Shown: positions 1,402 through 18,659 of the stretch, piece by piece
Numbering within the stretch: the first letter of the stretch is position 1
Layout of the letters: each line of letters opens with the position of its first letter
Origin: a virus
DNA: 20,151 nt
Virus record (IMG/VR): IMGVR_UViG_3300028883_000260
Location: 1-20,151 of that record
Direction: 5' to 3' (one strand)
The notes under the pieces: model-generated
The model's input: the letters and a program-made list of their open reading frames with translations, nothing else
Databases searched by the model: none
Told to the model about the DNA's origin: nothing
Made by a program: the position numbers and the translations under genes

Positions 1402-3083
1402 TATGTTACCTCCTGATAAATTCGGAAGGCAACAACATAATTCTCATCAAAATAATCGCTTAAATCAGTTGATTGGCTACCTGATAAAGTAAATTCCGTA
1501 TTTTCTGCTGTACTATCATCACTATCTAAATTCTCCCAAGCAGTATCTTCTCTATTATAGATTTGTAAATATACAGTTGAACTTGAGGGTGCTTCTGTAC
1601 TCTTACCTTTCCAAGTAATACTAACTGGTGATTGTGATTCTCCGTCATTATATTTCTGAAAAAGAAACTTACAATAAGCACTAGTTCCCTCTGCACAAAC
1701 ATAAATATCATTATCGCTTTCAACATCAGTATAATCCTGCTCAACAAAAGTATTACTTAATGTCGCATCATCTGACTCTAAATCACTGGCATTTTCATAG
1801 GAAAATATATCATCAACATCAGCATCTAAATAAATACTTCTTTCACTATCAGCAGTAAGTTTTCCCTGTATATAAACAACCCTTTCTGAATCAGAAGTAG
1901 TCAAACCCTTTAGATAAATATTTCTTTCTGAATTTCCAGTACCTCCAACTTCTGGTATTTCTACTTCAAAAACCTGTGCACAACCAGCATCATCCCCCCT
2001 TATAACAGTAAAGTAATGCCCATCTTCTATTTCAACAACAGAAGCGTTTTGTGAAACACCACTATCAATAGTACACAATAATGGACTACTAGCAGTAGTT
2101 ATAGCCCAAGTAGAAGTATTTACTGAAAATACCTGCGCATACATATTAAAAGTAGGGTTTTCATCTTTTTCCCAATAAAGAATAAAGTGACTACTATCAA
2201 TAGCAATAGCTTCTATTATACCCGAATCCTCTGTAGTTGTTACCTCTAAGGCACTACCAGCCGTTGTAACTGCATAAGTAGAGGTGTTAACATTAAATGC
2301 CTGTACCTGAATATTTCCACCATTAAAAGAATCATCCTCTGCCCAAGAATTTATATAATAATTACTATCTATTTGAATTGCCGACCCTGATACACCAATA
2401 TCTGTAGTAAATGTTAGAGCAGAATTGCTTGTGCTAACAACATATGTACTTGTATTAACTTCTAAAACCTGAGCATTTCCATCACCATCAGATACACGAT
2501 AAAATAATAACAGGTGATTATCGTCTATTTTAGGTGGTCGGGTTCTAGGTTCATAAATAGTAGCACTTGGATATATATCCAATAAACCACCATTATCATC
2601 ATAAGCATAAGAACCATCATAATGTAAACCAACTGCATATAATTGAGTACCATACTTAAATATCCACGAAACTACACCATCACTAATATAATTAACCAGC
2701 GCATTACCAGAATAAGTCCCTAATAGTGCTTGATAAGCCCCAGTTGTAGTAACTGCATAAGTAGAGGTATTAACAGTTAAAACTTGAGAGTGAACATAGT
2801 CATATTCTTGATATATGACAACACAATGATTTGAATCCAACCAGCACAAATCATTTCTAGCTGTACTTGTATTTGTATGTATATCAAGCACAGAATTAGC
2901 AGTTGTAACAGCCCAAGTAGAAGTATTAACAGTAAATGTCTGAGCAGAGAATTCTTGATAATAATAACTTTGAAAGACAGTTATGTAGTGATTACTATCT
3001 ATAGTTAAAGAATGCTGGTAATTACAATAGGTAGTATCAAATGTCAAATAATTATTTGCTGTTGTTATATCCCAATTTGCCAT
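1401..3083 (-). CDS. Repeat-rich probable tail or host-recognition protein
   Basis: This 560-residue protein has three visible parts. Residues 1-378 contain a repeat with the core VNTST(Y/W)AVTTA, seen at 52, 104, 209, 265 and 321, each unit also carrying an IDSNHY-like segment. The spacing is 52, 105, 56 and 56, so one copy in the middle is degenerate or double length and there are about six units. The unit size fits beta-propeller blades, but no known propeller family is recognised. Residues 381-420 hold three 14-residue repeats with SER at 385, 399 and 413. The last 135 residues are acidic and beta-rich and look like a carbohydrate-binding-module type sandwich. No signal peptide or membrane segment is visible. 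The gene shares one base with the upstream GT-A gene (TAATG), has no clear ribosome site there, and precedes the DUF2341/LamG gene. A virion fibre or appendage role is inferred. Confidence 0.7.
   Translation of the reverse strand: MANWDITTANNYLTFDTTYCNYQHSLTIDSNHYITVFQSYYYQEFSAQTFTVNTSTWAVTTANSVLDIHTNTSTARNDLCWLDSNHCVVIYQEYDYVHSQVLTVNTSTYAVTTTGAYQALLGTYSGNALVNYISDGVVSWIFKYGTQLYAVGLHYDGSYAYDDNGGLLDIYPSATIYEPRTRPPKIDDNHLLLFYRVSDGDGNAQVLEVNTSTYVVSTSNSALTFTTDIGVSGSAIQIDSNYYINSWAEDDSFNGGNIQVQAFNVNTSTYAVTTAGSALEVTTTEDSGIIEAIAIDSSHFILYWEKDENPTFNMYAQVFSVNTSTWAITTASSPLLCTIDSGVSQNASVVEIEDGHYFTVIRGDDAGCAQVFEVEIPEVGGTGNSERNIYLKGLTTSDSERVVYIQGKLTADSERSIYLDADVDDIFSYENASDLESDDATLSNTFVEQDYTDVESDNDIYVCAEGTSAYCKFLFQKYNDGESQSPVSITWKGKSTEAPSSSTVYLQIYNREDTAWENLDSDDSTAENTEFTLSGSQSTDLSDYFDENYVVAFRIYQEVT
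1806..1931 (-). repeat. Three 42-base repeats encoding a 14-residue SER motif
   Basis: Three in-frame units of exactly 42 bases start at 1931, 1889 and 1847, reading down the minus strand. They encode SERNIYLKGLTTSD, SERVVYIQGKLTAD and SERSIYLDADVDD (the last is incomplete). The alternation of charged, aliphatic and aromatic residues with a Gly turn suggests short beta hairpins or a beta-solenoid-like linker between the propeller-like part and the C-terminal domain of the same protein. Confidence 0.75.
2091..2936 (-). repeat. Five DNA copies of the VNTST(Y/W)AVTTA repeat core
   Basis: Related segments of about 37-40 bases occur at roughly 2091-2129, 2261-2297, 2431-2467, 2743-2782 and 2901-2936. 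They share the plus-strand core AAGTAGA(A/G)GTATTAAC with small differences; the 2431 copy is the most diverged. Each encodes the VNTST(Y/W)AVTTA core of the 560-residue protein. The other parts of each repeat unit have diverged much further. The pattern fits tandem duplication of a coding unit followed by drift everywhere except the core. Confidence 0.75.
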
Positions 3084-3760
3084 TAGTTATACTGAACAAA
3101 ATTATATGTACTCATATGTAACGGTCTTATCCTTTCATCTAACCATATTTCAAAACCTTCATTTATTGCCCTTTCACTAAACTCACAATCTTCACTCATA
3201 GTCCTTCTGTCATACTCTTTCCCATCTATCTCTATTTTCTTACTAAACCTAATCTCACCAAACTCAAATATTCTTTCTTGATATTTTTTGTTTAACTTCC
3301 TTAAAACCTCTCTTTTAATAAGCATTGCTCCTGTTCCTGCTGCATCTATTCTGTGTAAATATCCTTCATCTCTAAATTCTTTGATATTCTCATATAAATA
3401 AATTCCCTCTACTTCTTTTTTGTAGAACGCACATAACGGGTGTACCCCTTTCTCATTAGGATTTCTACCCAATATAGGTGCGATTACAATATCTTTATCA
3501 TCTTCAATAAACTTTTCTAAAGTATCTGGTGGTATAGGATTGTCATCATCTACAAAAAACAAATAATCAAAATCACCCCTTAATGCTTCCATAGCAATAG
3601 CATTTCTTGCTTTATCTATTCTTTGCCTTTCTATAATCATAAATGCACAAGGGTATGGCTTGTGTAATTGCAGTAAACTCTGAACCATAGTAGCAGGTAT
3701 CATCCCACTATAACTAGGCATACCTATTAAAATCTTTTTACTTTCCTGCTTGTACTCCAC
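3083..3760 (-). CDS. GT-A fold glycosyltransferase (family 2-like)
   Basis: This 225-residue protein resembles short GT2-like glycosyltransferases found in phages. KKILIGMPSYSG at 8-19 is the first nucleotide-binding strand. DYLFFVDDDNPIP at 65-77 carries the DxD-type metal/nucleotide-sugar site (Asp71-73). AGTGAMLIKREVL at 141-153 is the acceptor-side loop. SEDCEF at 189-194 supplies the usual general base region, followed by H215 near the end. The start is a GTG, chosen because the first beta strand begins eight residues later and the next ATG lies inside it. It overlaps the upstream gene by 23 bases and shares its last base with the following repeat-protein gene. It lacks membrane helices, so it is likely cytosolic. 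Sugar donor and acceptor cannot be read from sequence. Its place between structural genes suggests it may glycosylate a virion protein. Confidence 0.8.
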   Translation of the reverse strand: MEYKQESKKILIGMPSYSGMIPATMVQSLLQLHKPYPCAFMIIERQRIDKARNAIAMEALRGDFDYLFFVDDDNPIPPDTLEKFIEDDKDIVIAPILGRNPNEKGVHPLCAFYKKEVEGIYLYENIKEFRDEGYLHRIDAAGTGAMLIKREVLRKLNKKYQERIFEFGEIRFSKKIEIDGKEYDRRTMSEDCEFSERAINEGFEIWLDERIRPLHMSTYNFVQYN

Positions 3761-3992
3761 TTTCTTGCTTGAGCGAAGTTAGCTCTTTCTCCTCCCTCTC
3801 CATTTTCTCTAGAGTTTCCTCTTTCAACCTATTGTAATTAGATATCACCTCTGGCTTTTCAGAATAATGTTCTAGTTTCCCATCTAATTCTTTCAAATAC
3901 AAAGTATCTCTATAATGTTGTGTTTCTATTTTTTTGATATATTCTACCCTTAATACTTCCTGTTCCTCAACTGTCAAATAGTCGTATTTCAT
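3738..3992 (-). CDS. Small coiled-coil protein of unknown function
   Basis: This is an 84-residue, highly charged, helical protein (many Glu and Lys, with heptad-like leucines) that starts MKYDYLTVEEQEVLRVEY. An in-frame GTG at 4031 would add 13 residues (MLGKCYLIYIISF), but that version would overlap the preceding gene. The ATG at 3992 lies 17 bases after the preceding stop and is preferred, although neither start has a clear ribosome site. No family is recognised. The predicted character is a long helical hairpin or coiled coil, as in small phage structural or chaperone proteins, and the neighbours are probable virion genes. No function is claimed. Confidence 0.6.
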   Translation of the reverse strand: MKYDYLTVEEQEVLRVEYIKKIETQHYRDTLYLKELDGKLEHYSEKPEVISNYNRLKEETLEKMEREEKELTSLKQESGVQAGK

Positions 3993-4009
3993 AAAACTAA
4001 TAATATAAA

Positions 4010-4411
4010 TTAAATAACATTTACCCAGCACTTGTCTGGGTCTATCTCACTTACATATAAACGCACCTTAAAGTCATCATAAATTGCTTCAGCAACAGTA
4101 TATAATTCATACCCTGAAGCACCCGTTAAACCATCAATAGCACCTCTCCTGAAACAGTTGTAACTGTTAGGAACTTTCCCTTGAAACTTAGATTTGCTAT
4201 TCGGTAAATGATAGTGCCTATTACCTATCTCCGTCTTAACATTAAGCGACATAGAAGTAATAGTTAAACTATTTTCTTTTAAGTATGATTGTAGTTTATG
4301 CCACGGACTAAGTTCATTAGGTTTCTTTTCTAATATACCAACACCCTCTACCAAACTTTCTCCGTTAGATAAACCTACAACAAATTTTACTTTACACTCT
4401 GGTAATTCCAT
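4010..4411 (-). CDS. Hypothetical phage protein, probable virion-module gene
   Basis: This 133-residue protein begins MELPECKVKFVVGLSNGESL after a GAGGAG ribosome site seven bases upstream, a good start. It is mixed alpha/beta with a hydrophobic first strand, a central NRHYHLPNSKSKFQGKVP segment and a conserved-looking end (AEAIYDDFKVRLYVSEIDP, then CWVNV). No membrane segment or signal peptide is visible. I do not recognise the family. It lies between a beta-rich acidic protein and a small coiled-coil protein in the region where head-completion or tail genes would be expected, so a connector or tail role is possible but unsupported by motif. Confidence 0.6.
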   Translation of the reverse strand: MELPECKVKFVVGLSNGESLVEGVGILEKKPNELSPWHKLQSYLKENSLTITSMSLNVKTEIGNRHYHLPNSKSKFQGKVPNSYNCFRRGAIDGLTGASGYELYTVAEAIYDDFKVRLYVSEIDPDKCWVNVI

Positions 4412-4442
4412 AACCTCTCCTCAGATGTTAAATTATTTATTT

Positions 4443-4994
4443 TTACTGATAGGTGAATTCTATTCTCACCTTGTTTGAACTCTTTACTCCTACTGTTGAT
4501 GGACTTGCACTCATTAGTATATAGAAGTAATGGTCAGTAGCAGGTGTATCACTATCATCTATTGATAAAGCAGCACCACTTCCGTCTGCATTTGTCCACT
4601 CTGTATCACCTACTTCTGCTAACTGCACATCAGTTCCAGTTGGAGCTGTCGCTGGTGTAGTACCATCGTAAGCATACATTGTGATATCTGTAACTGTGAT
4701 ACTTGAAGATTCACTTATAGTGATTTTTAGAGTCGCTTCTCCATCTAAACAATCCTCTATATCTTCTGTACCATCACCCCAGTCGGCTGTACCACTAGCG
4801 ATATACTTTACATTGTTAGGGGTATTACCATCGGAATCATCAGCACCACCTGAACTTCTTACGTGTGTTCCGTCATTATAGGAACTTACTGTAATAGGAT
4901 TATCAAATGTACCATCAGAGAACTGAATCAAGTCAGTTGCCTCTATGGTGGTACCTGAACTCCCTTGTAATTCCCAAGTTTGTGTTAACGCCAT
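4443..4994 (-). CDS. Acidic beta-rich protein, probable tail or decoration protein
   Basis: This 183-residue protein is very rich in Thr, Ser, Asp and Gly with few basic residues, and reads as a chain of beta strands (WELQGSSGTTIEATDLIQF, TLKITISESSSITVTDITMY, HYFYILMSASPSTVG, NKVRIEFTYQ). The composition is that of virion surface or tail-tube-type proteins. There is no signal peptide and no recognised enzymatic motif. It is the first gene after the sugar cassette and has its own extended -10 promoter upstream, which suggests it is needed in larger amounts. It could be a tail tube, a head decoration protein or part of a fibre; sequence alone does not separate these. Confidence 0.6.
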   Translation of the reverse strand: MALTQTWELQGSSGTTIEATDLIQFSDGTFDNPITVSSYNDGTHVRSSGGADDSDGNTPNNVKYIASGTADWGDGTEDIEDCLDGEATLKITISESSSITVTDITMYAYDGTTPATAPTGTDVQLAEVGDTEWTNADGSGAALSIDDSDTPATDHYFYILMSASPSTVGVKSSNKVRIEFTYQ

Positions 4995-5017
4995 ACTTTT
5001 TACTTAATAATTTAACT

Positions 5018-5033
5018 ACTTTATATTATACCA
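5018..5033 (-). promoter_or_regulatory. Extended -10 promoter for the beta-rich structural gene
   Basis: The minus strand reads TGGTATAAT, a perfect TGn extended -10 followed by TATAAT (plus-strand 5025-5033). No good -35 box is visible at 16-18 bases, which extended -10 promoters can tolerate. The expected start of transcription is near 5018, leaving about 24 untranslated bases before the ATG at 4994. It lies just beyond the stop of the dehydratase gene, in one of the few small non-coding gaps. Confidence 0.5.
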
Positions 5034-5040
5034 TTTTTTA

Positions 5041-6048
5041 CTAAACCTTATCCCATACCATATCAGAAACTAATTGTTCAATATCAGTTTCAGGTTGCCA
5101 ACCAAACGATTCTCTTGCTTTACTGCTATCTCCTAAAAGCACCTCAACATCATTCGGTCTGTAAAACTTTTCATTTATACGAACTAAAACATTTCCATTA
5201 TCTTTATCAATACCTTTTTCATCTATACCTTTTCCCTGCCAATCTAACTCTATTCCAAGAACTCCAAACGCCATATTGACAAAATCTTTAACAGAATATT
5301 TTTCACCACTAGCAATAACATAAGTATCAGGAACTCCCTCCATCATCATTGCCATTGCCCTTACATAATCTCTACTATGCCCCCAATCCCTTTCAGAATA
5401 AATATTGCCCAACTCCAAAGGCATTTCATACTCACCTTTATTATCGTAAAACTCCCTGACCCAATTAGTAATCTTTTTCGTAACAAATTCGTTACCTCTT
5501 AATGCCGATTCGTGATTAAACAATATTCCACAATAACCATTGAAACTATAACTTTTTCTGTATACTTCAACAAAGTTGTGTGCCATTAGTTTTGCTATTC
5601 CATAAGGACTACTAGGGTTAAAAGGTGTAGTTTCACTCTGCATAGGTTCTCTAATATCACCATACATTTCACTTGTACTCGCCTGATAAAACTTTGCCTC
5701 TGGTCTATATTCTAATAACATTTCAACTAATTCACATACTGCCAAACCATTACATTTCAATGCATAAAACGGTTGCCTAAAAGAAGTTCCTACAAAAGAT
5801 TGTGCTGCTAAATTATAAAACTCATCCATATCACAACTTTTCACAACATCAACCATATTATGATAATCAAGTAAGTCAAAATCAACTATCTTAACATCAT
5901 CTTTAATACCTAGTTTCTCTAACCTCCAAAATGTTCTCTCTGAACTTCGCCTTGCCCCACCTATAACATTATTACCCTTTTCTAAATGATACTTTGCTAA
6001 ATAAGCACCGTCTTGTCCAGTGATTCCAGTAATAAATATATTTTTCAT
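5041..6048 (-). CDS. gmd: GDP-mannose 4,6-dehydratase
   Basis: The enzyme converts GDP-D-mannose to GDP-4-keto-6-deoxy-D-mannose, the precursor of GDP-L-fucose, GDP-D-rhamnose and GDP-perosamine, in the cytosol. This 335-residue protein is an extended short-chain dehydrogenase/reductase. TGITGQDG at 7-14 is the NAD(P)-binding glycine motif. ARRSSERTFWRLEKLG near 32-47 resembles the loop that binds the cofactor adenosine phosphate. NLAAQSFVGTSFRQP at 79-93 is typical of Gmd. ASTSEMYG at 123-130 and SPYGIAK at 147-153 give the expected catalytic Thr125, Glu127, Tyr149 and Lys153. FNHESALRGNEFVTKKI matches the substrate-binding stretch of Gmd. Length is close to the bacterial norm. An AGGAGA ribosome site precedes the ATG, which overlaps the methyltransferase stop (TAATG). 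No Fcl, Rmd or perosamine synthase is in the window, so the next step must come from elsewhere in the genome or from the host. Confidence 0.93.
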   Translation of the reverse strand: MKNIFITGITGQDGAYLAKYHLEKGNNVIGGARRSSERTFWRLEKLGIKDDVKIVDFDLLDYHNMVDVVKSCDMDEFYNLAAQSFVGTSFRQPFYALKCNGLAVCELVEMLLEYRPEAKFYQASTSEMYGDIREPMQSETTPFNPSSPYGIAKLMAHNFVEVYRKSYSFNGYCGILFNHESALRGNEFVTKKITNWVREFYDNKGEYEMPLELGNIYSERDWGHSRDYVRAMAMMMEGVPDTYVIASGEKYSVKDFVNMAFGVLGIELDWQGKGIDEKGIDKDNGNVLVRINEKFYRPNDVEVLLGDSSKARESFGWQPETDIEQLVSDMVWDKV

Positions 6049-6587
6049 TATTCTCCTAAATCTACTTTAGATAATACAGTAATATTTTCTTTCTTTTCTG
6101 TTAAAGTATAAGTACCTTTCTTTAAGAACTCATCAACTGCTCTCCATACTTCAGGTTTTATTGTATCGTGTAAAACTATAAATCTAGGGTCAGATTGTGA
6201 AAACTTTTCTAAATCGTGTTTTACCATATCGTAAGTATGAACTGCATCTATAAATAACAATCCTGTTTTACCTATATTTGCTATTGCTGCTTTTTCTGCA
6301 GTTGTAGGAATAATTACAACCCTATGGTCTAAATTCAATGACCTAATATTATTCACCAAATTAGGAACAACAAACGGTTCAACTATCTGAATATAACTCT
6401 CACTTGCTAACAGTAAAGATATAGTAGATTGCCCTTCTGCACTTCCTATCTCTAAAATGCTCTCATCTTTTTCTAACATACCTGCATACTTACAAAGGAT
6501 TTCATTATCCTCTTTTGTATGCCAACTTCTAGTCCAACTCAAACTTGGTAGTAATTCACTCCAAATTCCTTGATGCCTGTATTTCAT
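6048..6587 (-). CDS. Class I SAM-dependent methyltransferase
   Basis: This 179-residue protein has the Rossmann methyltransferase layout. LEIGSAEGQST at 45-55 is motif I (SAM-binding glycine loop), VEPF near 69-72 ends strand 2, LLFIDAVHTYDMVKHDLE at 110-127 is the motif IV region, and IVLHDT at 137-142 follows. The order and the DAVHTYDMV signature match the Methyltransf_24/CmcI-like group, whose members often methylate sugars or small molecules. It overlaps the end of the upstream glycosyltransferase by 32 bases and the dehydratase start by one base. In this context sugar O-methylation is the likeliest role. Methylation of another substrate cannot be excluded, and no DNA-methyltransferase target motif (DPPY or PC) is visible. 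Confidence 0.8.
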   Translation of the reverse strand: MKYRHQGIWSELLPSLSWTRSWHTKEDNEILCKYAGMLEKDESILEIGSAEGQSTISLLLASESYIQIVEPFVVPNLVNNIRSLNLDHRVVIIPTTAEKAAIANIGKTGLLFIDAVHTYDMVKHDLEKFSQSDPRFIVLHDTIKPEVWRAVDEFLKKGTYTLTEKKENITVLSKVDLGE

Positions 6588-7404
6588 TTTTAATTATTTT
6601 CCAAAACTTAAATTGAGATTGGGTGTTTTTTCTTATCTGTTCATAGTTGCCAAAATCCCAACCCCAACTGATAGCACCTATGTTTTCGTTAATCAGTAAA
6701 CTACAACCACAATAATACGATTCTATAACAGTTCTGCCAAACGGTTCACTATATATTATCGGCTTATGAAAAAAATACTGACACCGTTGATATTCTTTTA
6801 TCAATTCGGCTGTAGTTAATTCACCTAAATACTTTATATTATCTACTCCCTTAATATCATCTATATTAGCACCCCAACCTGCTATATAACACTTCATATT
6901 AGGATTCTGTTTAGCAAACTCAATATACCCATCAGAATTCTTAAACTTACAAAAATTCCCTGCCCAGAGAACTGTATTCGGTTCTTTTTCTCCTTTCGGT
7001 TTGAACCTTATATTATCAACACTTGATGGCACTAAACTATAGTTTTCTATATCATATCCAACCTTTTTACAAACTGCTTTATAATGTAACGGACTTAAAA
7101 ATATGTTGTGTTTAACTTTCTTAAATAATTCTGGAAAATGGTCTGAAACCCAGTAGTCGTGCTCATACCTTATACAGGGTTGTGAATCCACCAGTTCCAA
7201 TATAAACTCTTTCTCCCACTTGGTAATGTTGTTCAATATCACCATATCATAATCGGTCTTAGATTGGACTACAGAACCTCCAGTAAGCATCTCTATATCA
7301 TATCCGTGCTTTTTACCATACTCAATCATTATCTGATTAGTTCTCTGTGCTCCTCCCTTGTGTTCTTTACTTGTAAAATCTGCAACCCATAAAATCTTAT
7401 ACAT
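6556..7404 (-). CDS. GT4-like glycosyltransferase (GT-B fold)
   Basis: This 282-residue enzyme is a short GT-B transferase. The N-terminal half (ILWVADFTSKEHKGGAQRTN, with a glycine-rich acceptor loop) is followed by the SSVDNIRFKP segment at 127-136 that usually closes the first domain in GT4 proteins. The C-terminal half has the VLWAGNFCKFKN strand and the EX7E donor-binding motif at Glu220 to Glu228 (EPFGRTVIE). It is about 70-100 residues shorter than typical GT4 enzymes, mainly in the N-terminal domain. The ATG at 7404 follows a GAGGA ribosome site. It overlaps its neighbours by 8 and 32 bases. Donor and acceptor are unknown; GDP-mannose or a Gmd-derived sugar is a reasonable guess from context. 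Confidence 0.85.
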   Translation of the reverse strand: MYKILWVADFTSKEHKGGAQRTNQIMIEYGKKHGYDIEMLTGGSVVQSKTDYDMVILNNITKWEKEFILELVDSQPCIRYEHDYWVSDHFPELFKKVKHNIFLSPLHYKAVCKKVGYDIENYSLVPSSVDNIRFKPKGEKEPNTVLWAGNFCKFKNSDGYIEFAKQNPNMKCYIAGWGANIDDIKGVDNIKYLGELTTAELIKEYQRCQYFFHKPIIYSEPFGRTVIESYYCGCSLLINENIGAISWGWDFGNYEQIRKNTQSQFKFWKIIKNEIQASRNLE

Positions 7405-7591
7405 CTTTATCTTCCTCTAATTTATTGAATATCTTTCTTGTAACTGAAGTTGATAATCTTAACTTATCTTCATCCCTTGGTGGTAATAAATGATTTACTG
7501 CATCACTACAAATTGCCATATGAATAAACATAAGTTCCTCCCTGGTAAACTCATTTGATTTTTCTAACTCTATGCTCGGTTCTTGTTCCAT
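7397..7591 (-). CDS. Small hypothetical protein inside the glycosyltransferase cassette
   Basis: This 64-residue acidic helical protein (begins MEQEPSIELEKSNEFTREEL) has a GGAGGT ribosome site six bases before its ATG. It is linked to both neighbours, sharing one base with the upstream GT stop (TAATG) and overlapping the downstream GT start by 8 bases. The ribosome site and tight packing support a real gene. No family is recognised. The helical segments FTREELMFIHMAICSDAVNH and SVTRKIFNKLEED could be a small helix bundle. Function unknown. Confidence 0.6.
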   Translation of the reverse strand: MEQEPSIELEKSNEFTREELMFIHMAICSDAVNHLLPPRDEDKLRLSTSVTRKIFNKLEEDKDV

Positions 7592-8493
7592 TATAGTACC
7601 TCCAATATTTTATTTTCTATATTATCTACAATCGCTTTAGGACTTCTTTCCTGAGCAATTATATTCCTAGCACTTAAATCATAGGTATGTGGCAACCTCT
7701 CAACCAAATTTCTTATACCCTCTACATTGTCAGGTTTGACAAAATGAACCCTATCACCAAACCTTTCTAAATCTCTATGTCCTGCCACTTTTGTAGTTAT
7801 AACCTGTAAACCCATACATAATGCTTCTAAAACTAAAGTTGATATGCCCTCAGTATCTTTATTTTTTGCTACTCTTGATGGTGCTATCAATAACCACGAT
7901 TTTTCCATTAAATCTTTTACCTCATCTCTATCTAACCAACCTACAAAATCTGCCTGATTAGATAACGCCTTTAATTTAGGTGCTAATTCTCCATCTCCAA
8001 ATACAGTTATATTAGGAACTGCTTTAATAGCAGTATCCAAACCTTTCTTTTCTACAAACCTACCACCACAAATAATCTTACCCCCCATAGTTCTTAATCT
8101 TTTTAATCGGTCTATATCAATACTAGCACCCCAAAAGATTAACTTGTCCTCTGGAACTCCCCACTCTAAAAACTTCTCTTTATGATAACTTGATATATAC
8201 CCTACGAATTTACAATTATCTTTACTAATAACTTGTCTAAACTTCTCCCCATCGTCTGTCCAAATATCCCAGGCGTGTGCCACAAACCCAAAAGGTTTTT
8301 CAAATGTACTTGCTTTTAATGCTATATGAGCAAAATGAGATAGTATAAAATCACAATCACTCAAATCCATATAAGGATATTGCAATCGGTGGACTTTCAC
8401 ATTATGTCCTCTCATTGTTAGTTCCTCTATCTCTAGTGGTATCCAAGTTTCACTAGGTAACGGATAATCGTAAAGTACATACCCTATATTCAT
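7591..8493 (-). CDS. GT4-family glycosyltransferase (GT-B fold)
   Basis: This 300-residue protein carries the hallmarks of GT4 transferases. The N-terminal domain starts MNIGYVLYDYPLPSETWIP, a form common in exopolysaccharide GTs, and has HAWDIWTDD near 73-81. The C-terminal domain has IICGGRFVEKKGLDTAIKA at 140-158 (phosphate and donor loop), FGDGEL at 165-170, and the EX7E motif from Glu215 to Glu223 within EGISTLVLEALCMG. It begins within an ATGA overlap with the stop of the large double GT and has no ribosome site of its own, so translation is probably coupled. It is cytosolic or membrane-peripheral. The closest familiar group builds surface polysaccharides, but the acceptor here is unknown. 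Confidence 0.87.
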   Translation of the reverse strand: MNIGYVLYDYPLPSETWIPLEIEELTMRGHNVKVHRLQYPYMDLSDCDFILSHFAHIALKASTFEKPFGFVAHAWDIWTDDGEKFRQVISKDNCKFVGYISSYHKEKFLEWGVPEDKLIFWGASIDIDRLKRLRTMGGKIICGGRFVEKKGLDTAIKAVPNITVFGDGELAPKLKALSNQADFVGWLDRDEVKDLMEKSWLLIAPSRVAKNKDTEGISTLVLEALCMGLQVITTKVAGHRDLERFGDRVHFVKPDNVEGIRNLVERLPHTYDLSARNIIAQERSPKAIVDNIENKILEVL

Positions 8494-10685
8494 TCAATTA
8501 TAGTTTTCAAATTATTTACTAAGGTTTCAAACTTAAACTGTTTTTTTCTTGCTATAAATTTCTTACTATTCATTGCTTTTTTAAGTTTATTCGCTAGGTC
8601 AAAGTCATCACCCCTTTTAGCAATATGAATATGTTTATCATTTCCTGCAACCTCTCTTAAAGCACCACTATCAATAATTACACACTCTAACCCCATATAC
8701 CTACCCTCTGCCAACCACATACCATAACCCTCATACGGACTAGGGCAAAACATTACCTTTGCTTTAGAATACATTTCAAACTTTTCCTCATCTGGTCTAT
8801 CATAATGAGCAACAACTCTATCCTTTAACCCATATCTTCTAATCCAATTATCTAACTGAGAACTCATACTGCTAGTAAATATATGGAACTCCCAATCGTC
8901 AGGTGTTAAACTAAATATCTGTAACGCTTTCTCAAACCCCTTATCCCTTTCCCCAGTAGTGGCACTAGCAATAACAATATTCTCCCTGTCGTTTTTATAT
9001 TTATCTGCTACTTTATCATTAACACAGGGTTGTAAAACATAAGCAGGATTGTTTCCATAATAATCAATACTCTTTTCTTTAGCATATTCAGTTAAAAACA
9101 CCAAATTAACATCAGTATCTTTAACTAAATTATCTAATTCATAATAACCATTTTTCTCACTTTCAATCCTACTCTTGTCTGGGTCAAACTCCTCTATCAT
9201 AGGAATAGGGTCAAAGATAAAACTATAAGCAGGGTTTCCTGTTCTAATATGATTTTTTACACAGGCAACATTTCCCTCAAATACAGAACCCATATAAATA
9301 TCTGCATCTACCTCAACATTTTTAATACTTCTCTCATCATCTAATAAAACAGTTTTATAACACCTATTCCAATCTAACTCATCTTCCCAAGGTGGGTGCA
9401 TATTAGTATAAATGGTCGTATCATAACCTAGTTCACACAATGCTTGTAATATCTGGTATGAAAATATTCTACCTCCTGAATACATATCCCTATTTTTCAT
9501 AAAAAATGCTACCGACTTTTTGTTCTGTTTAGGATTAGGTATAACAACATCTACTGCCTTATTTTTAATCCCTATCTCTTTTAATCGGTCTGCTAATATA
9601 ACCCCTGTTTTTTGTATAGGATAATTTCTCCTGACCCACTCTGCACCCTCAAACCCCATTTCCCAACACTTACCTCTATGCTCGTATGCCCATCTTAGTT
9701 TCTTTCGTAAATCTTTCTTACTGGGTTCAACCATTTCACCAACCACTTTAATATCAAAGTTTTCGTATATTGGTGGTCGTGTTCCTTCAATTTCTAATTC
9801 AATAAAATACTTATCATCAAAATATTCACTCATACCACTCGCATTAGGAATAATTGAGGTAGTTCCACAGGCAAGTGCTTCTAATGGTGGTAAACCAAAT
9901 CCCTCTCCACGACTTGGAAACACAAAACAATCAGTTTGCCATAGTAATTCTCTTAACCTTTCCTGATTATACCTTTCTAAAATAACCTCTACATTAGGAT
10001 ATTTGCTTCTCAATATTGGAAAGGGTAATCTACCAACAACACTCTTTAGTATAAGTTTTACATCTTCCTGCTGACCAAACTCCTCTACAAACGCACCAAA
10101 TAGAATATCCCAACCCTTTCTCTGGTCAAAGGCATTGTACATAGTAAAAGTAAATATATCATCATCTTCCTTTTCCTTGTAATAGAATAAGTCCTGATTA
10201 TACCCCAATGGTATTACTTCTGTATTAACACCTCTACTGGCAAACGCTTTCTGGCAAAAATGACTAGGTACAAATATTTTATCTGCAATATCTAAATACT
10301 CAACCCAATCTGGGTCAATCATAGTAGATTCAAACATTGAATATAAAACTTTCTTATCTGTCTGTAAACTCTTTAACGGATGTGGGTAAGAATAAACTAC
10401 ACCAACCTTTTGCCCAGTATAATCGTGGACTACTGGAACTCCTGCCTGTTCTAACGAATAAATAAGAGGTGCAGTAGATTGTCCATATCCGTGTGGACTG
10501 TTATTATTTTTCCTAAAAAAAACACCTTCGCCATCACACCTTTCAGGAGGGTTTTTCCTTTCTCTATAATAGACACCTTCCTGCACCTTATCAGCGAACT
10601 TAAAACCTCTTTCAATCAGATACTCAATTCTCTTTTGTTTATCAACTTCAACTGTCCTGCCTTTTAAGTTTACTAATAAAGCCAT
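8490..10685 (-). CDS. Large protein with two GT-B glycosyltransferase units
   Basis: This 731-residue protein contains two glycosyltransferase units. Residues 1-50 form a short helical leader (MALLVNLKGRTVEV, then KQKRIEYLIERGFK). Unit one, about 55-370, has HGYGQSTAPLI (acceptor-side loop), VPSHFCQKAF, a PLGYNQDLF segment and the donor motif EX7E at Glu261 to Glu269 in EGFGLPPLEALACG. Unit two, about 388-731, restarts with KKSVAFFMKNRDMYSGGRIF and has EX7E at Glu652 to Glu660 in YEGYGMWLAEGRYMG. Both units keep the key glutamates, so both may be active. It is about twice the size of a single GT4 enzyme and is the first gene of the sugar cassette, just after the capsid terminator. Such double enzymes can add two successive sugars; which sugars is not visible. 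Confidence 0.87.
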   Translation of the reverse strand: MALLVNLKGRTVEVDKQKRIEYLIERGFKFADKVQEGVYYRERKNPPERCDGEGVFFRKNNNSPHGYGQSTAPLIYSLEQAGVPVVHDYTGQKVGVVYSYPHPLKSLQTDKKVLYSMFESTMIDPDWVEYLDIADKIFVPSHFCQKAFASRGVNTEVIPLGYNQDLFYYKEKEDDDIFTFTMYNAFDQRKGWDILFGAFVEEFGQQEDVKLILKSVVGRLPFPILRSKYPNVEVILERYNQERLRELLWQTDCFVFPSRGEGFGLPPLEALACGTTSIIPNASGMSEYFDDKYFIELEIEGTRPPIYENFDIKVVGEMVEPSKKDLRKKLRWAYEHRGKCWEMGFEGAEWVRRNYPIQKTGVILADRLKEIGIKNKAVDVVIPNPKQNKKSVAFFMKNRDMYSGGRIFSYQILQALCELGYDTTIYTNMHPPWEDELDWNRCYKTVLLDDERSIKNVEVDADIYMGSVFEGNVACVKNHIRTGNPAYSFIFDPIPMIEEFDPDKSRIESEKNGYYELDNLVKDTDVNLVFLTEYAKEKSIDYYGNNPAYVLQPCVNDKVADKYKNDRENIVIASATTGERDKGFEKALQIFSLTPDDWEFHIFTSSMSSQLDNWIRRYGLKDRVVAHYDRPDEEKFEMYSKAKVMFCPSPYEGYGMWLAEGRYMGLECVIIDSGALREVAGNDKHIHIAKRGDDFDLANKLKKAMNSKKFIARKKQFKFETLVNNLKTIIE

Positions 10686-14852: not shown

Positions 14853-16322
14853 TTACCGAAATACTTTTGCTTTCTGGGTAAATACTCTAGTACTCCTATG
14901 ATACTTATTACCTTGTAATGCTAAAAATGAAGCAAACAGGTTGTCATCGTGGTATCCCTCATCGTGTTCTCTTTTTCCATTTTCCTTTCTAACAAATGTT
15001 TTCATTTCATTTATTAAGTAATTTGAATTGATAATAAGTTTATCACTCTCAAACAGTTCAACAAAATCGTCAATCATCATATCCCTATTAACACCTGTAG
15101 TTCTCCACCCATACTCATTTTTTACCTTAGCAGTTTTCTTGTCAACAGTTTTATTAACAAACAAATTCTGATACCCCTTTTCTTTAATCTTTAATACAGT
15201 AGTTAATCCACTACCATTTCTCTCTGGTATTAGAAACGCATCATTATATTTTTTACCCAAATCAATCAATACATCTGCTGTCTGGTCTGGTCTAATAGTA
15301 TTATCCTGAAAACTTGCAACTTCCTCTATATTATCTAAATCAGTAAAATCCCAAACCTCTATTGCTGTTCTATCACTTCCAATACCTTCGGCTGTATCAC
15401 AACCTACAATATACTTATGACCGTTCTTAGGTTCATAATATATATTTACCCCTTTCATTTTAGTAATAGGTTGCTTAGATTGTATCTGGCTAACCTTAAA
15501 CAAATCAAATACTGATATACTAGAAGTTAAAAATGCTTCCTCTGGTACAGTTGGATACTCCTGTTTAACTGATTCTCTTAATCGTCTTGCTTTTAAGTAA
15601 TACCAGTAGTATTGTTCATCAGATATTTGAAACCTATTCTGTATATCTTCTATTAAGTTACATTTTTTTGCTAAAACCTTATAGTCGTCTTTCCAAGTAT
15701 TATCTTCTGGTGGAGTTTCCCAGTAGTCATCATCCCAAGTCCAGTTGTAAAAATGTGGAGTAAATTCGTTTTTACCCTCTACTGCATCCATCCAAACATC
15801 GTGTGCCCTATTTAATCCGTTAGCAGTAGTTTCAAGAGTTATTACACCGTCTTTAGGTACAGTTTCCAAAGATGAAGCAAACAACCCCTCTATATCTTTA
15901 ATCATAGCAAATTCAGATATATGCAAATCGTTAACTGTTCCTGACCTAGTATTCAAATCAACATAATATCTACTTGAAGTTTTACCAAAGTACAGTTCCC
16001 TTACATTATCATACTTTACCTCATATAGTTCTCTTACTCCCTCTGGTAGATTTTCCCAAGCAAACCTAGCAATTCTAAATATGTCATTAGTTTTATCTCT
16101 CCTATGCGCTATTGTAGCAACCGTTATGTTCGGATTTAACATTGCCTTTTTAAGTTTCCTAACCTGTTCAAGAGTAGTAAAACCCATCTGCCTTGCTTTA
16201 AGTATAAAATCCCTGCCAGTTCTTTTTTTAATATAATCTAACTGTGCTCGTTTCGGCTTAAACTTAACCTTATTAAACCCTTTATCTTTAATGCAGAATT
16301 CATTTAGTAAATCTCTACTCAT
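14853..16322 (-). CDS. terL: Terminase large subunit (packaging ATPase and nuclease)
   Basis: The enzyme drives DNA into the head and cuts the concatemer. From the ATG at 16322 it is 489 residues. A TTG at 16355 would add 11 residues but lies deep in the small-subunit gene, whereas the ATG overlaps its stop by 8 bases and has GGTGA upstream. The ATPase domain has the Walker A variant KARQMGFTT at 42-50, Walker B with catalytic Glu in DLHISEFA at 132-139, and the coupling motif TLETTANG at 162-169. QEYPTVPEEAF follows near 254. The RNaseH-like nuclease has VGCDTAEGIGSDRTA with Asp309, IPERNGSG with Glu367, and GYHDDNLFA with the Asp459/460 pair. All expected catalytic acids are present. Confidence 0.95.
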   Translation of the reverse strand: MSRDLLNEFCIKDKGFNKVKFKPKRAQLDYIKKRTGRDFILKARQMGFTTLEQVRKLKKAMLNPNITVATIAHRRDKTNDIFRIARFAWENLPEGVRELYEVKYDNVRELYFGKTSSRYYVDLNTRSGTVNDLHISEFAMIKDIEGLFASSLETVPKDGVITLETTANGLNRAHDVWMDAVEGKNEFTPHFYNWTWDDDYWETPPEDNTWKDDYKVLAKKCNLIEDIQNRFQISDEQYYWYYLKARRLRESVKQEYPTVPEEAFLTSSISVFDLFKVSQIQSKQPITKMKGVNIYYEPKNGHKYIVGCDTAEGIGSDRTAIEVWDFTDLDNIEEVASFQDNTIRPDQTADVLIDLGKKYNDAFLIPERNGSGLTTVLKIKEKGYQNLFVNKTVDKKTAKVKNEYGWRTTGVNRDMMIDDFVELFESDKLIINSNYLINEMKTFVRKENGKREHDEGYHDDNLFASFLALQGNKYHRSTRVFTQKAKVFR

Positions 16323-16698
16323 AATCTTCACCAGTTGTATTAGGGTCTTTATCAAATTCCTTAATAAAATCCTCTATTGTTACACTTGTTACTACTGATT
16401 CCTCTCTTGTACTAAACTCACCCTTACTTTTCCTTTCTAAATACCACTCTGCGTGTCTAGGGTCATCTAAACTATTTACAACTGTTTGCCTTGCCTTTAA
16501 CAGGGGCTTTTCTTTTAACAACCTTTTTCTCTCCAAAAACTCAGGATTTTCGTTCTGATAATTATATAAAGTTGAAGTACTAATATCTGCATAAGTACAC
16601 GCTTCTATATCACTTGCACCAATAGCAAATGCTGATTCTAATTTCTGGAGTACATCATCCGTCATAACAGTAGGTCTACCTTCTTTATTTTCACTCAT
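16315..16698 (-). CDS. terS: Terminase small subunit
   Basis: This 127-residue protein recognises viral DNA and regulates the large subunit. KEGRPTVMTDDVLQKLESAF at 5-24 is the common opening. A helix-turn-helix lies at about 25-52 (GASDIEACTYADISTSTLYNY), followed by NPEFLERKRLLKEKPLLKAR, the usual oligomerisation helix. The acidic C-terminal tail likely contacts TerL. An AAGGGA ribosome site precedes the ATG, which overlaps the stop of the preceding glycosyltransferase gene as ATGA. The stop overlaps the TerL start by 8 bases. Confidence 0.93.
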   Translation of the reverse strand: MSENKEGRPTVMTDDVLQKLESAFAIGASDIEACTYADISTSTLYNYQNENPEFLERKRLLKEKPLLKARQTVVNSLDDPRHAEWYLERKSKGEFSTREESVVTSVTIEDFIKEFDKDPNTTGEDYE

Positions 16699-17534
16699 TT
16701 TTGTTCCCTTAATATTTTAGGTACACATTTTGCCCAATCAATATAATGGTGTATTCTTTTATGAACACTACCTAATTGCCCTATTTTAACACAAGACGGA
16801 TTATACATCACAGTGAAAAATGATTTTACATAAGTTCCATAATCCAAATATACATCTGTTAATCCACTTTCCTGCGATTGGTGCATAGTTTGTATTACTT
16901 TTATCATAGTAGTAGTAAAAAATAACATACCCTTTATTCCTAAATTCACATAGGTAGTAACATCTTCATTTAATCTGCCCATAAACTTAAAAGGTCTTTC
17001 AGTACTACATAAAAAAGTATTCATTGCCTTTCTTAACAATTTCGGTTCTGCTCTACTCCCTAATTGCCCACCCATAAAATCTCCACCCTGTGCAAATGCT
17101 ATAGTTGTGGTAGGTGTGTTTTTATAAAATTCCAATAATGCTTCAATTACCCTGTCTAAATCTTTTACCTGACTTGACCTAAATTCCCAGTTTTTATTGA
17201 AACTATATTGAAATTGAGTGTAATCATCACACATAATCATAAAATACTTAACACCTTTTTCCTTTGCCAATTTAGGTATTGTATTAACTGCATATAAGGT
17301 ACTTCTTAAATCCCCACTATTGTCCCCACCGTCTGATTCTAATGCTGCCTTTTCTTTATCAAATACTAACAAATCATCTCCGTATTTTTCTTTATACAAG
17401 TGCAATGTAGGGTCTAAATTATCAGCAACAAAATATATCTTTCCAGTATAACCACTTTTTCTCAATGTGCTATAAGTCCACATCTTATTAGGTCTGCCGT
17501 GAACCATTATAAATATAGCAAAATCATTCAGCAT
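16695..17534 (-). CDS. TET-associated glycosyltransferase-like protein (TAGT family)
   Basis: This 279-residue protein matches the layout of TAGT glycosyltransferases, which in phages add sugars to modified DNA bases. HGRPNKMWTYSTLRKSGYTG near 12-31 is the opening, followed by IYFVADNLDP, a YKEKYGDDLLVFDKE stretch, SDGGDN, and YFMIMCDDYTQF at about 97-108, whose Asp-Asp pair is the metal/nucleotide-sugar site. GRLNEDVTTY near 186-195 carries a second acidic cluster. The ATG at 17534 overlaps the ParB-like stop by 11 bases; a TTG at 17543 would add three residues. The gene ends in an ATGA overlap with the terminase small subunit. Family membership is recognised from motifs only. No TET/JBP dioxygenase or hydroxymethylase is in the window, so the DNA substrate is inferred. 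Confidence 0.75.
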   Translation of the reverse strand: MLNDFAIFIMVHGRPNKMWTYSTLRKSGYTGKIYFVADNLDPTLHLYKEKYGDDLLVFDKEKAALESDGGDNSGDLRSTLYAVNTIPKLAKEKGVKYFMIMCDDYTQFQYSFNKNWEFRSSQVKDLDRVIEALLEFYKNTPTTTIAFAQGGDFMGGQLGSRAEPKLLRKAMNTFLCSTERPFKFMGRLNEDVTTYVNLGIKGMLFFTTTMIKVIQTMHQSQESGLTDVYLDYGTYVKSFFTVMYNPSCVKIGQLGSVHKRIHHYIDWAKCVPKILREQK

Positions 17535-18264
17535 CAGTTTCAATACTCATTAAGAAATTAGTTAATCTAACAAAACCGTTCTCTATTGCCTTATCATAAT
17601 CCACTATTACTAATGCTAGTTTTTCCATTATATCCTTTATCTCTCCATCTGAATTGGCATAATAATCAGCAATTTTAGAATAATTAAACTCATAAAACCT
17701 CGTTGATGCTTTTATTAAAAACTCTTTTTCTTTTTCAGGCAGTTTAGATTGCTTTATTAACTCTTGTAATTCATCTGCTTTTTCTGAATTATAAATTTCA
17801 CTCAGTTTAGGTTTCTCATTTTTAGGTTCATATATAGGTGATTTTATTTTTTTAGTATAAAATTCATCTTCCAAATCTTCTAAACTAAACCCTGTTAATT
17901 GCTGTAGTTTTATATCTAACTGTTCTAATTCTACTTGAACTAAATCCATATCCCAAGGGCTTTCATTGAGTTTATTATCTGCTATTCTATATGCATTTAT
18001 TTCATCTTCAGTAAGGTCATCTGCAATGATATAAGGTATAAATTCCTCTCCTTTTTTAGAATATACTGCCTCCTTTAATTCCGTATAACCCAATTTTTTC
18101 ATTGCTAAATACCTACCGTGTCCAACTATTAAAGTTCCATCAGATTTTATTAACAAGGGTTGTTTACACCCAAACGCTTTAATAGAATTTGCTATCGCTT
18201 CTATCTGTTCTTTAGGGTGTTTCTTTGCATTTCTTGGATAAGGTTTTATCTCTATATTGCTCAT
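17524..18264 (-). CDS. ParB/Srx-domain protein with phage C-terminal domain
   Basis: This 246-residue protein has a ParB-like N-terminal domain. IKPYPRNAKKHPKEQIEAIA and SIKAFGCKQPLLI at about 6-40 lead to LIVGHGRYLAMKKLG at 45-59 with the GHxR nucleotide-binding motif, then LTEDEINAYRIADNKLNES at 84-102. Residues 140-165 are a proline/lysine linker. Residues 180-235 (ASTRFYEFNYSKIADYYANS region and IMEKLALVIVDYDKAIENGF) form a C-terminal segment I have seen described with phage ParB-like proteins. No helix-turn-helix typical of plasmid ParB and no DNA methyltransferase fusion is visible. It shares an ATGA overlap with the upstream HEXXH gene and an 11-base overlap with the TAGT-like gene, so the two probably act together. 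Confidence 0.8.
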   Translation of the reverse strand: MSNIEIKPYPRNAKKHPKEQIEAIANSIKAFGCKQPLLIKSDGTLIVGHGRYLAMKKLGYTELKEAVYSKKGEEFIPYIIADDLTEDEINAYRIADNKLNESPWDMDLVQVELEQLDIKLQQLTGFSLEDLEDEFYTKKIKSPIYEPKNEKPKLSEIYNSEKADELQELIKQSKLPEKEKEFLIKASTRFYEFNYSKIADYYANSDGEIKDIMEKLALVIVDYDKAIENGFVRLTNFLMSIETDAE

Positions 18265-18659
18265 AATAGTTCTTTTGCTTCATTAAACTTAATTATTCCT
18301 CCATACATATCAGAAGATAAATCCATTATCACCTTAGCAATCATTTTATCCTTTAATACAAAACCCTTAACATTATCCTTAATCCACTCAACCTCTGCTT
18401 TGTATGCTTCTAACTCCTGGTCTAATCTAAACTCTTTGTCTTTAATATACTTATCCCACCATTTTTCAACACCCATTTCTTTCTGCTGTTTTATATGTAC
18501 TTTCTCGTGTGTAATTTTAGGTTCTTTTATTTTCCACTTGCAATAAACAGTATCCCCATATGTGATTATAACACCTTTTTTCCAGTTAATCTTAAAGTGT
18601 TTTTTTAGTTCCCAGTATATATCTGGTATCTCTTTAGATTGTTTTATTTTGTAATTCAT
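18261..18659 (-). CDS. Small HEXXH zincin-like protein
   Basis: This 132-residue protein contains THEKVHIKQQ at 50-59, which fits the HEXXH zinc-binding motif (His51, Glu52, His55). Downstream, QELEAY at 81-86 offers Glu82 or Glu84 as a third zinc ligand. RLDQELEAYKAEVEW is a pattern seen in small phage zincin-like proteins. No signal peptide or membrane helix is present. The gene starts with a normal ATG inside the end of the NinG-like gene (26-base overlap) and shares ATGA with the ParB-like gene. A metallopeptidase activity is plausible but the substrate is unknown. Confidence 0.6.
   Translation of the reverse strand: MNYKIKQSKEIPDIYWELKKHFKINWKKGVIITYGDTVYCKWKIKEPKITHEKVHIKQQKEMGVEKWWDKYIKDKEFRLDQELEAYKAEVEWIKDNVKGFVLKDKMIAKVIMDLSSDMYGGIIKFNEAKELL

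Follow-up and report, generated by a model that had tools for sequence, protein, structure and literature searches.

The TAGT-like gene that stands directly before the terminase genes of this virus encodes a GT-A glycosyltransferase, and sequence comparison of its relatives indicates that this TAGT clade has its obligate partner in the uncharacterised C-terminal domain (C-domain) of the ParB-like protein encoded just upstream, the ParB head of that protein having apparently been swapped. Judged from the loci recovered, the pair is widespread among phages, and the tail domain of the partner travels with the TAGT. We regard as evenly poised the proposal that the two proteins make up a self-contained two-component glycosylation unit, acting most likely on phage DNA and usually at packaging, with the C-domain replacing the hydroxylation step. 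The window (the whole stretch of DNA that was analysed) is a 20,151-bp virus record, a genome fragment, and searches of the phage's own genome were confined to it.

Gene layout and the TAGT fold

The features of the locus are as follows.
17524–18264 (−): ParB/Srx-domain partner gene, ATG start, 246 aa; phrog_620; relatives in Escherichia coli Rac-type prophages are named ynaK
17920–18252 (−): ParB N-terminal (NTP-binding-type) domain, residues 5–115, exchangeable; GHGR at residues 48–51
17557–17859 (−): C-terminal TAGT-partner domain (C-domain), residues 136–236, uncharacterised; all-helical in the model
17830–17838 (−): P-x-Y motif (P143, Y145), invariant, in the flexible segment with which the C-domain opens
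17524–17534 (−): 11-bp overlap of the ParB stop with the TAGT start, comparable in most relatives
16695–17534 (−): TAGT glycosyltransferase, 279 aa from ATG; PF20691, GT-A fold
17223–17228 (−): Asp-Asp (D103, D104) of the TAGT DDD/DxD-type motif, invariant
16315–16698 (−): terminase small subunit (terS), phrog_4102 (1e-19), with an ATGA join to TAGT
14853–16355 (−): terminase large subunit (terL), Terminase_6C (1e-8)

The arrangement described in the initial annotation, a ParB/Srx gene overlapping a TAGT-like gene by 11 bases with an ATGA junction into terS, is present in full, the ATGA at 16695–16698 being common to the TAGT stop and the terS start. The packaging-locus position is likewise as described, with terS and terL directly following the TAGT gene. 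An alternative in-frame TTG at 17543, 9 nt upstream of the TAGT ATG, would give a protein of 282 aa. A second ATGA (18261–18264) is common to the ParB gene and the ORF upstream of it (18261–18659, −), which encodes a small protein with a THEKVHIKQQ segment (HExxH-like) and a weak match to a phage protease family.

The TAGT protein matches Pfam PF20691 with an E-value of 1.3e-28 and 100.7 bits (curated cut-off 27.5) and phrog_842, labelled 'beta-glucosyl-HMC-alpha-glucosyltransferase', with an E-value of 5e-61. It carries the motifs from which the family had been proposed, namely HGRP (residues 12–15), DNLDP (38–42), SDGGDN (67–72) and MCDDYTQF (101–108). The AlphaFold2 model (mean pLDDT 92, pTM 0.90) adopts a GT-A fold, and profile and model together bear out the proposed assignment to TAGT and to a GT-A family. 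A fold search with the model returned 118 PDB matches at E ≤ 0.001; among the matches listed, nearly all are GT-A glycosyltransferases and the rest GT-A-like enzymes, the neighbours including WrtF, TarP, GalNAc-T2 and SunS. A sequence search of the PDB with the TAGT profile gave nothing credible. The acidic DxD-type motif is present, with D103-D104 invariant among relatives; at 17223–17231 the motif reads MCDDY in the window copy and in one relative (L003), with Cys for the first Asp, and LDDDY in most relatives. As a GT-A glycosyltransferase, the protein is predicted to take the sugar that it transfers from a nucleotide-sugar donor; for the window TAGT, glycosyl transfer to a hydroxymethylated DNA base is a predicted activity at the level of the family.

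Distribution of the pair and its constant domain

TAGT relatives occur in named phages of Escherichia, Salmonella, Vibrio, Lactobacillus, Nocardia and Porphyromonas and of Haloarcula hispanica, a haloarchaeon; usually a ParB-like gene immediately precedes TAGT and the terminase follows it. A further 113 loci came from alignment-based scans of IMG/VR and genome contigs, in which the 80 best of some 600 hits were kept. Across the first 128 sources, the window and its one duplicate included, a ParB-like ORF lies upstream of every TAGT that has enough flank, mostly with an overlap of 3–40 bp; ParB–TAGT fusion ORFs were found in none of the loci examined. At least 80% of the Rac-type ParB–TAGT region is present in 865 of 5,426 complete E. 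coli genomes. The E. coli Rac-type prophages (for example, L126 and L208) have the partner labelled ynaK and the TAGT mostly labelled 'hypothetical' or 'GREB1-related', and ynaK is annotated as incomplete in ATCC 8739.

The partner protein matches phrog_620 (1.4e-47) and, under Pfam's own cut-off, ParB_N (6e-5). Its profile matches in the PDB (ParB, Noc, Spo0J and KorB) cover the N-terminal domain only, as do those from a fold search of the PDB with its model; comparison of the model with viral predicted structures gave ParB-like matches and no informative function for the C-domain. The ParB heads of phage DNA methylases are among the closest phage relatives (phrog_498, 1.6e-33), and residues 5–158 align by tblastn with phage 'DNA modification methylases', in agreement with the earlier view of a ParB domain of the kind that recurs in phage DNA-modification contexts. 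The G-x-x-R box is present in the window head as GHGR, its G being invariant in 119 of 119 dereplicated loci, and NTP binding is predicted from it. A classical plasmid-partition ParB was considered and rejected, because no parA was recognised among the window ORFs and the protein has no ParB HTH; the C-domain is also unrelated.

The initial annotation had stressed the ParB domain as the associate of TAGT; the conserved partner appears instead to be the C-terminal domain of the same gene. Nine of the ten invariant positions in an alignment of 51 partners fall in the C-terminal ~100 residues, and P143 and Y145 are invariant in 135/135 and 136/136 dereplicated loci, respectively. The domain has no Pfam match and no PDB match in profile and fold searches. 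When 50,697 phage records were searched with the C-domain only, the 28 matches were all in TAGT phages, and the corresponding search of IMG/VR gave 76 new loci, all 76 with a same-strand TAGT at most 1 kb downstream. Overall, 199 of the 203 loci, from scans that retained the 80 best of some 600 hits, have the C-domain next to TAGT, and the remaining four are contig edges. These loci were found with patterns of the window clade (at least 36% identity for most), more distant PF20691 members lying outside.

In 169 of the 199 C-domain loci the ORF also encodes a ParB head, in 24 it does not, and six are cut by a contig end. Among the 24, a ParB_N ORF adjoins in two (L112 and L119) and lies further downstream in one (L027), so that the C-domain occurs without any ParB head in about 21 loci. 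The ParB_N protein of L027 (7799–8299) is encoded downstream of TAGT, on the terminase side, and a lone C-domain upstream, as if head and C-domain had been separated. The 191-kb Vibrio phages have as partner a C-domain protein of 139 aa, whose gene adjoins TAGT amid replication genes and far from the terminase. Over 119 dereplicated loci, TAGT distances track those of the C-domain (Spearman 0.39) and hardly those of the ParB_N head (0.08; difference 0.31, bootstrap 0.19–0.41), even head and C-domain of one ORF reaching only 0.19, which argues that the head is exchangeable and that C-domain and TAGT form the unit. Of the 56 dereplicated loci with a ParB head, 34 have a TerL no more than 2.1 kb away, and none of the five loci without a head stands beside a detected terminase (p = 0.014), a comparison of small numbers with incomplete terminase detection.

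The complete genomes of Lactobacillus phage c5 and halovirus HHTV-2, compared end to end, have only the partner and TAGT in common (E ≤ 1e-4). Deletions in two sisters of c5, Lactobacillus phages Ld17 (L210, 75–833) and LL-Ku (L211, 90–938), took out the C-domain along with the greater part of the partner gene and a portion of TAGT, forming a natural loss series; the pair is dispensable, and its members appear to be lost together. Two genes suffice for testing what the pair does, both in E. coli prophages and in the cultured Lactobacillus phages, among which intact and deleted forms are available together.

Some loci carry additional genes. In 18 of those fetched with the C-domain, the C-domain gene and TAGT are separated by a further gene that abuts or overlaps both; in 17 of the 18 it encodes 315–331 aa (L133, L134, L135, L139, L142, L144, L151, L155, L159, L163, L169, L181, L188, L189, L190, L203 and L205). 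Each of the three that were scanned (L134, L169 and L203) is a His_Phos_1 phosphatase fused to a cytidylyltransferase-like domain; for L134 the Pfam E-values are 4e-40 and 1e-15, respectively, and the protein is HldE-/TagD-like by NCBIfam. Such a phosphatase–nucleotidylyltransferase would be suited to making an activated sugar or polyol, in keeping with a role in donor supply. A SAM methyltransferase-type gene lies between partner gene and TAGT instead in L197, L040, L042 and L064, and four loci (L004, L044, L093 and L100) have tandem full-length TAGTs behind one partner gene. The N6/N4 methylase family, considered as a general associate, was rejected with only 6 of 79 loci. No third conserved gene was detected within 7 kb in 79 dereplicated neighbourhoods beyond terminase/packaging and head genes.

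Acceptor-making enzymes and known modification loci

The initial annotation had allowed for a TET/JBP oxidase or a hydroxymethylase elsewhere in the genome, an idea that related genomes do little to sustain. A Tet_JBP search of 50 related records, including the two genomes read end to end (c5 and HHTV-2, which share just the two proteins), gave no match, the same search finding the TET of Gordonia phage CaiB as a positive control; a search of the 50 records for thymidylate synthase/hydroxymethylase gave a single homologue, carried by a Vibrio phage of 191 kb. From the other side, among 13 contigs that bear a CaiB-like TET, ParB_N is present in 12, PF20691 in eight and the C-domain in none, and the C-domain was not found in T6 or CaiB. 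The C-domain and TET are mutually exclusive in the loci examined; since the C-domain never occurs there with TET or the T6 hydroxymethylase, they are alternative partners of TAGT. A large TAGT subset thereby gains a defining partner, a domain that is without function by annotation.

The TET/JBP–TAGT hypermodification systems resemble the window type in having a TAGT of the same Pfam family and a ParB_N protein upstream (the order in L220 is ParB–TET–TAGT), and differ in having TET in place of the C-domain. T6 ggt, the glucosyl-hmC glucosyltransferase that is called TAGT in PMC13216743, is also a PF20691 member of GT-A type; unlike the window locus, T6 has an adjoining dCMP hydroxymethylase and an alpha-GT. 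An hhalign comparison of the window-clade TAGT profile with T6 ggt alone gave no similarity, and the kinship of the two therefore rests on their common Pfam profile. The thymidylate-synthase-type dCMP hydroxymethylase of T-even hmC hyperglucosylation has a single possible counterpart in the 50 related records. A 2026 study found a TAGT but no alpha- or beta-glucosyltransferase in 288 of 753 GT-bearing phage genomes and suggested that the TAGTs of those 288 are novel transferases (PMC13216743).

With a ParB-domain gene, a modifier gene and the terminase large subunit in order, the window locus is of the known 'ParB-Tls' type. PMC6536676, citing Iyer et al. 2013, describes ParB–modifier–TerL as a phage DNA-modification locus, in which ParB is proposed to direct modification at packaging. 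The window shares with these loci a ParB-domain protein, modifier and terminase in one operon-like run; it differs in having a lone TAGT as the modifier and a dedicated C-domain on the ParB gene, which is absent from the other ParB-Tls loci tested (the 13 TET contigs and CaiB). Phage ParB–DNA methylase fusions have the same type of ParB head, whereas here the place of the fused methylase as catalytic part is taken by TAGT, encoded by its own gene, together with the C-domain. No paper on the ParB–TAGT pair was found, and Iyer et al. 2013 may already list ParB–TAGT operons; the C-domain and its exclusivity with TET were found in no paper, those operon tables aside.

Proposed mechanism and candidate acceptors

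The C-domain would bind TAGT and would present, prepare or supply the acceptor, and the ParB/Srx head, where present, would load the complex onto phage DNA at the terminase during packaging. TAGT would then transfer the sugar, most likely to phage DNA, the product being a glycosylated base, and the glycosylated genome would be shielded from host nucleases. The C-domain would fill the role that a TET oxidase or a hydroxymethylase has for other TAGTs. Family, fold, conservation of the pair, the lack of TET and single thymidylate synthase in 50 relatives, and the C-domain/TET exclusivity in the loci examined are what sequence analysis provides; the physical complex, DNA substrate, sugar donor, acceptor, timing and protective role we infer. 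Because C-domain and TAGT are far from the terminase in the Vibrio phages, timing at packaging would not be universal.

DNA is favoured as the acceptor because of T6 ggt, the methylase-type ParB head and the ParB-Tls precedent. Against DNA, an unmodified base is a poor acceptor, and the relatives contain no known base-hydroxylating enzyme (one thymidylate synthase aside), although hypothetical ORFs could hide one. A bolder form of the DNA reading, possible but on balance doubtful, makes the C-domain a new enzyme or adaptor with which TAGT glycosylates DNA without a prior hydroxylated base, a third route beside those of TET and the T-even phages, carried as a portable two-gene cassette by bacterial and archaeal phages. 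Such a route, if true, would amount to new chemistry.

The main rival to a DNA acceptor is a protein acceptor, which we consider unlikely but deserving of weight: the partner itself (for example, at the P-x-Y tyrosine, in a glycogenin-like manner), the terminase or a capsid protein would be glycosylated, and the ParB head would merely bring the pair to the packaging machine. The invariance of P-x-Y within a flexible segment is one hint, and the lack of an acceptor-making enzyme in the 50 related records, bar the one thymidylate synthase, fits as well. The closest solved folds include the protein glycosyltransferases GalNAc-T2 and SunS, but neighbours at a TM of ~0.45 are uninformative on the acceptor. 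A second hint is GREB1, which we take to be related to TAGT, as the E. coli label 'GREB1-related' also has it. Eukaryotic GREB1 is reported to glycosylate protein (PMC12645433). However, the sole characterised phage member of PF20691 acts on DNA (PMC13216743, PMC13390438), and the ParB head is common to DNA methylases. If true, a protein target would be just as unexpected for the TAGT family.

It is improbable that the hydroxylated base is made by an unrecognised enzyme, from an unannotated ORF or supplied by the host, with TAGT glycosylating it as in the TET and T-even systems. Every genome has many hypothetical ORFs and the family offers the precedent, but the 79 dereplicated neighbourhoods have no common third gene, and c5 and HHTV-2 share nothing besides partner and TAGT. 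Modification of the host surface or of a small molecule (superinfection exclusion or host-takeover glycosylation), with the packaging-locus position a coincidence, is very improbable: phages carry many such glycosyltransferases and the window has its own glycan cluster, but the 79 neighbourhoods hold no conserved membrane protein or flippase partner, and the TAGT is tightly paired with a ParB-type protein across bacterial and archaeal phages.

The glycan cluster (3083–10685, −) lies downstream of the major head protein and encodes several GT4-type glycosyltransferases, a GT2/Anp1-like protein, a methyltransferase and a GDP-mannose 4,6-dehydratase (5041–6048, E=4e-110). It was excluded from the module because no close TAGT relative has such a cluster adjoining. 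The cluster probably serves virion or surface glycosylation, and it could be a source of the donor sugar.
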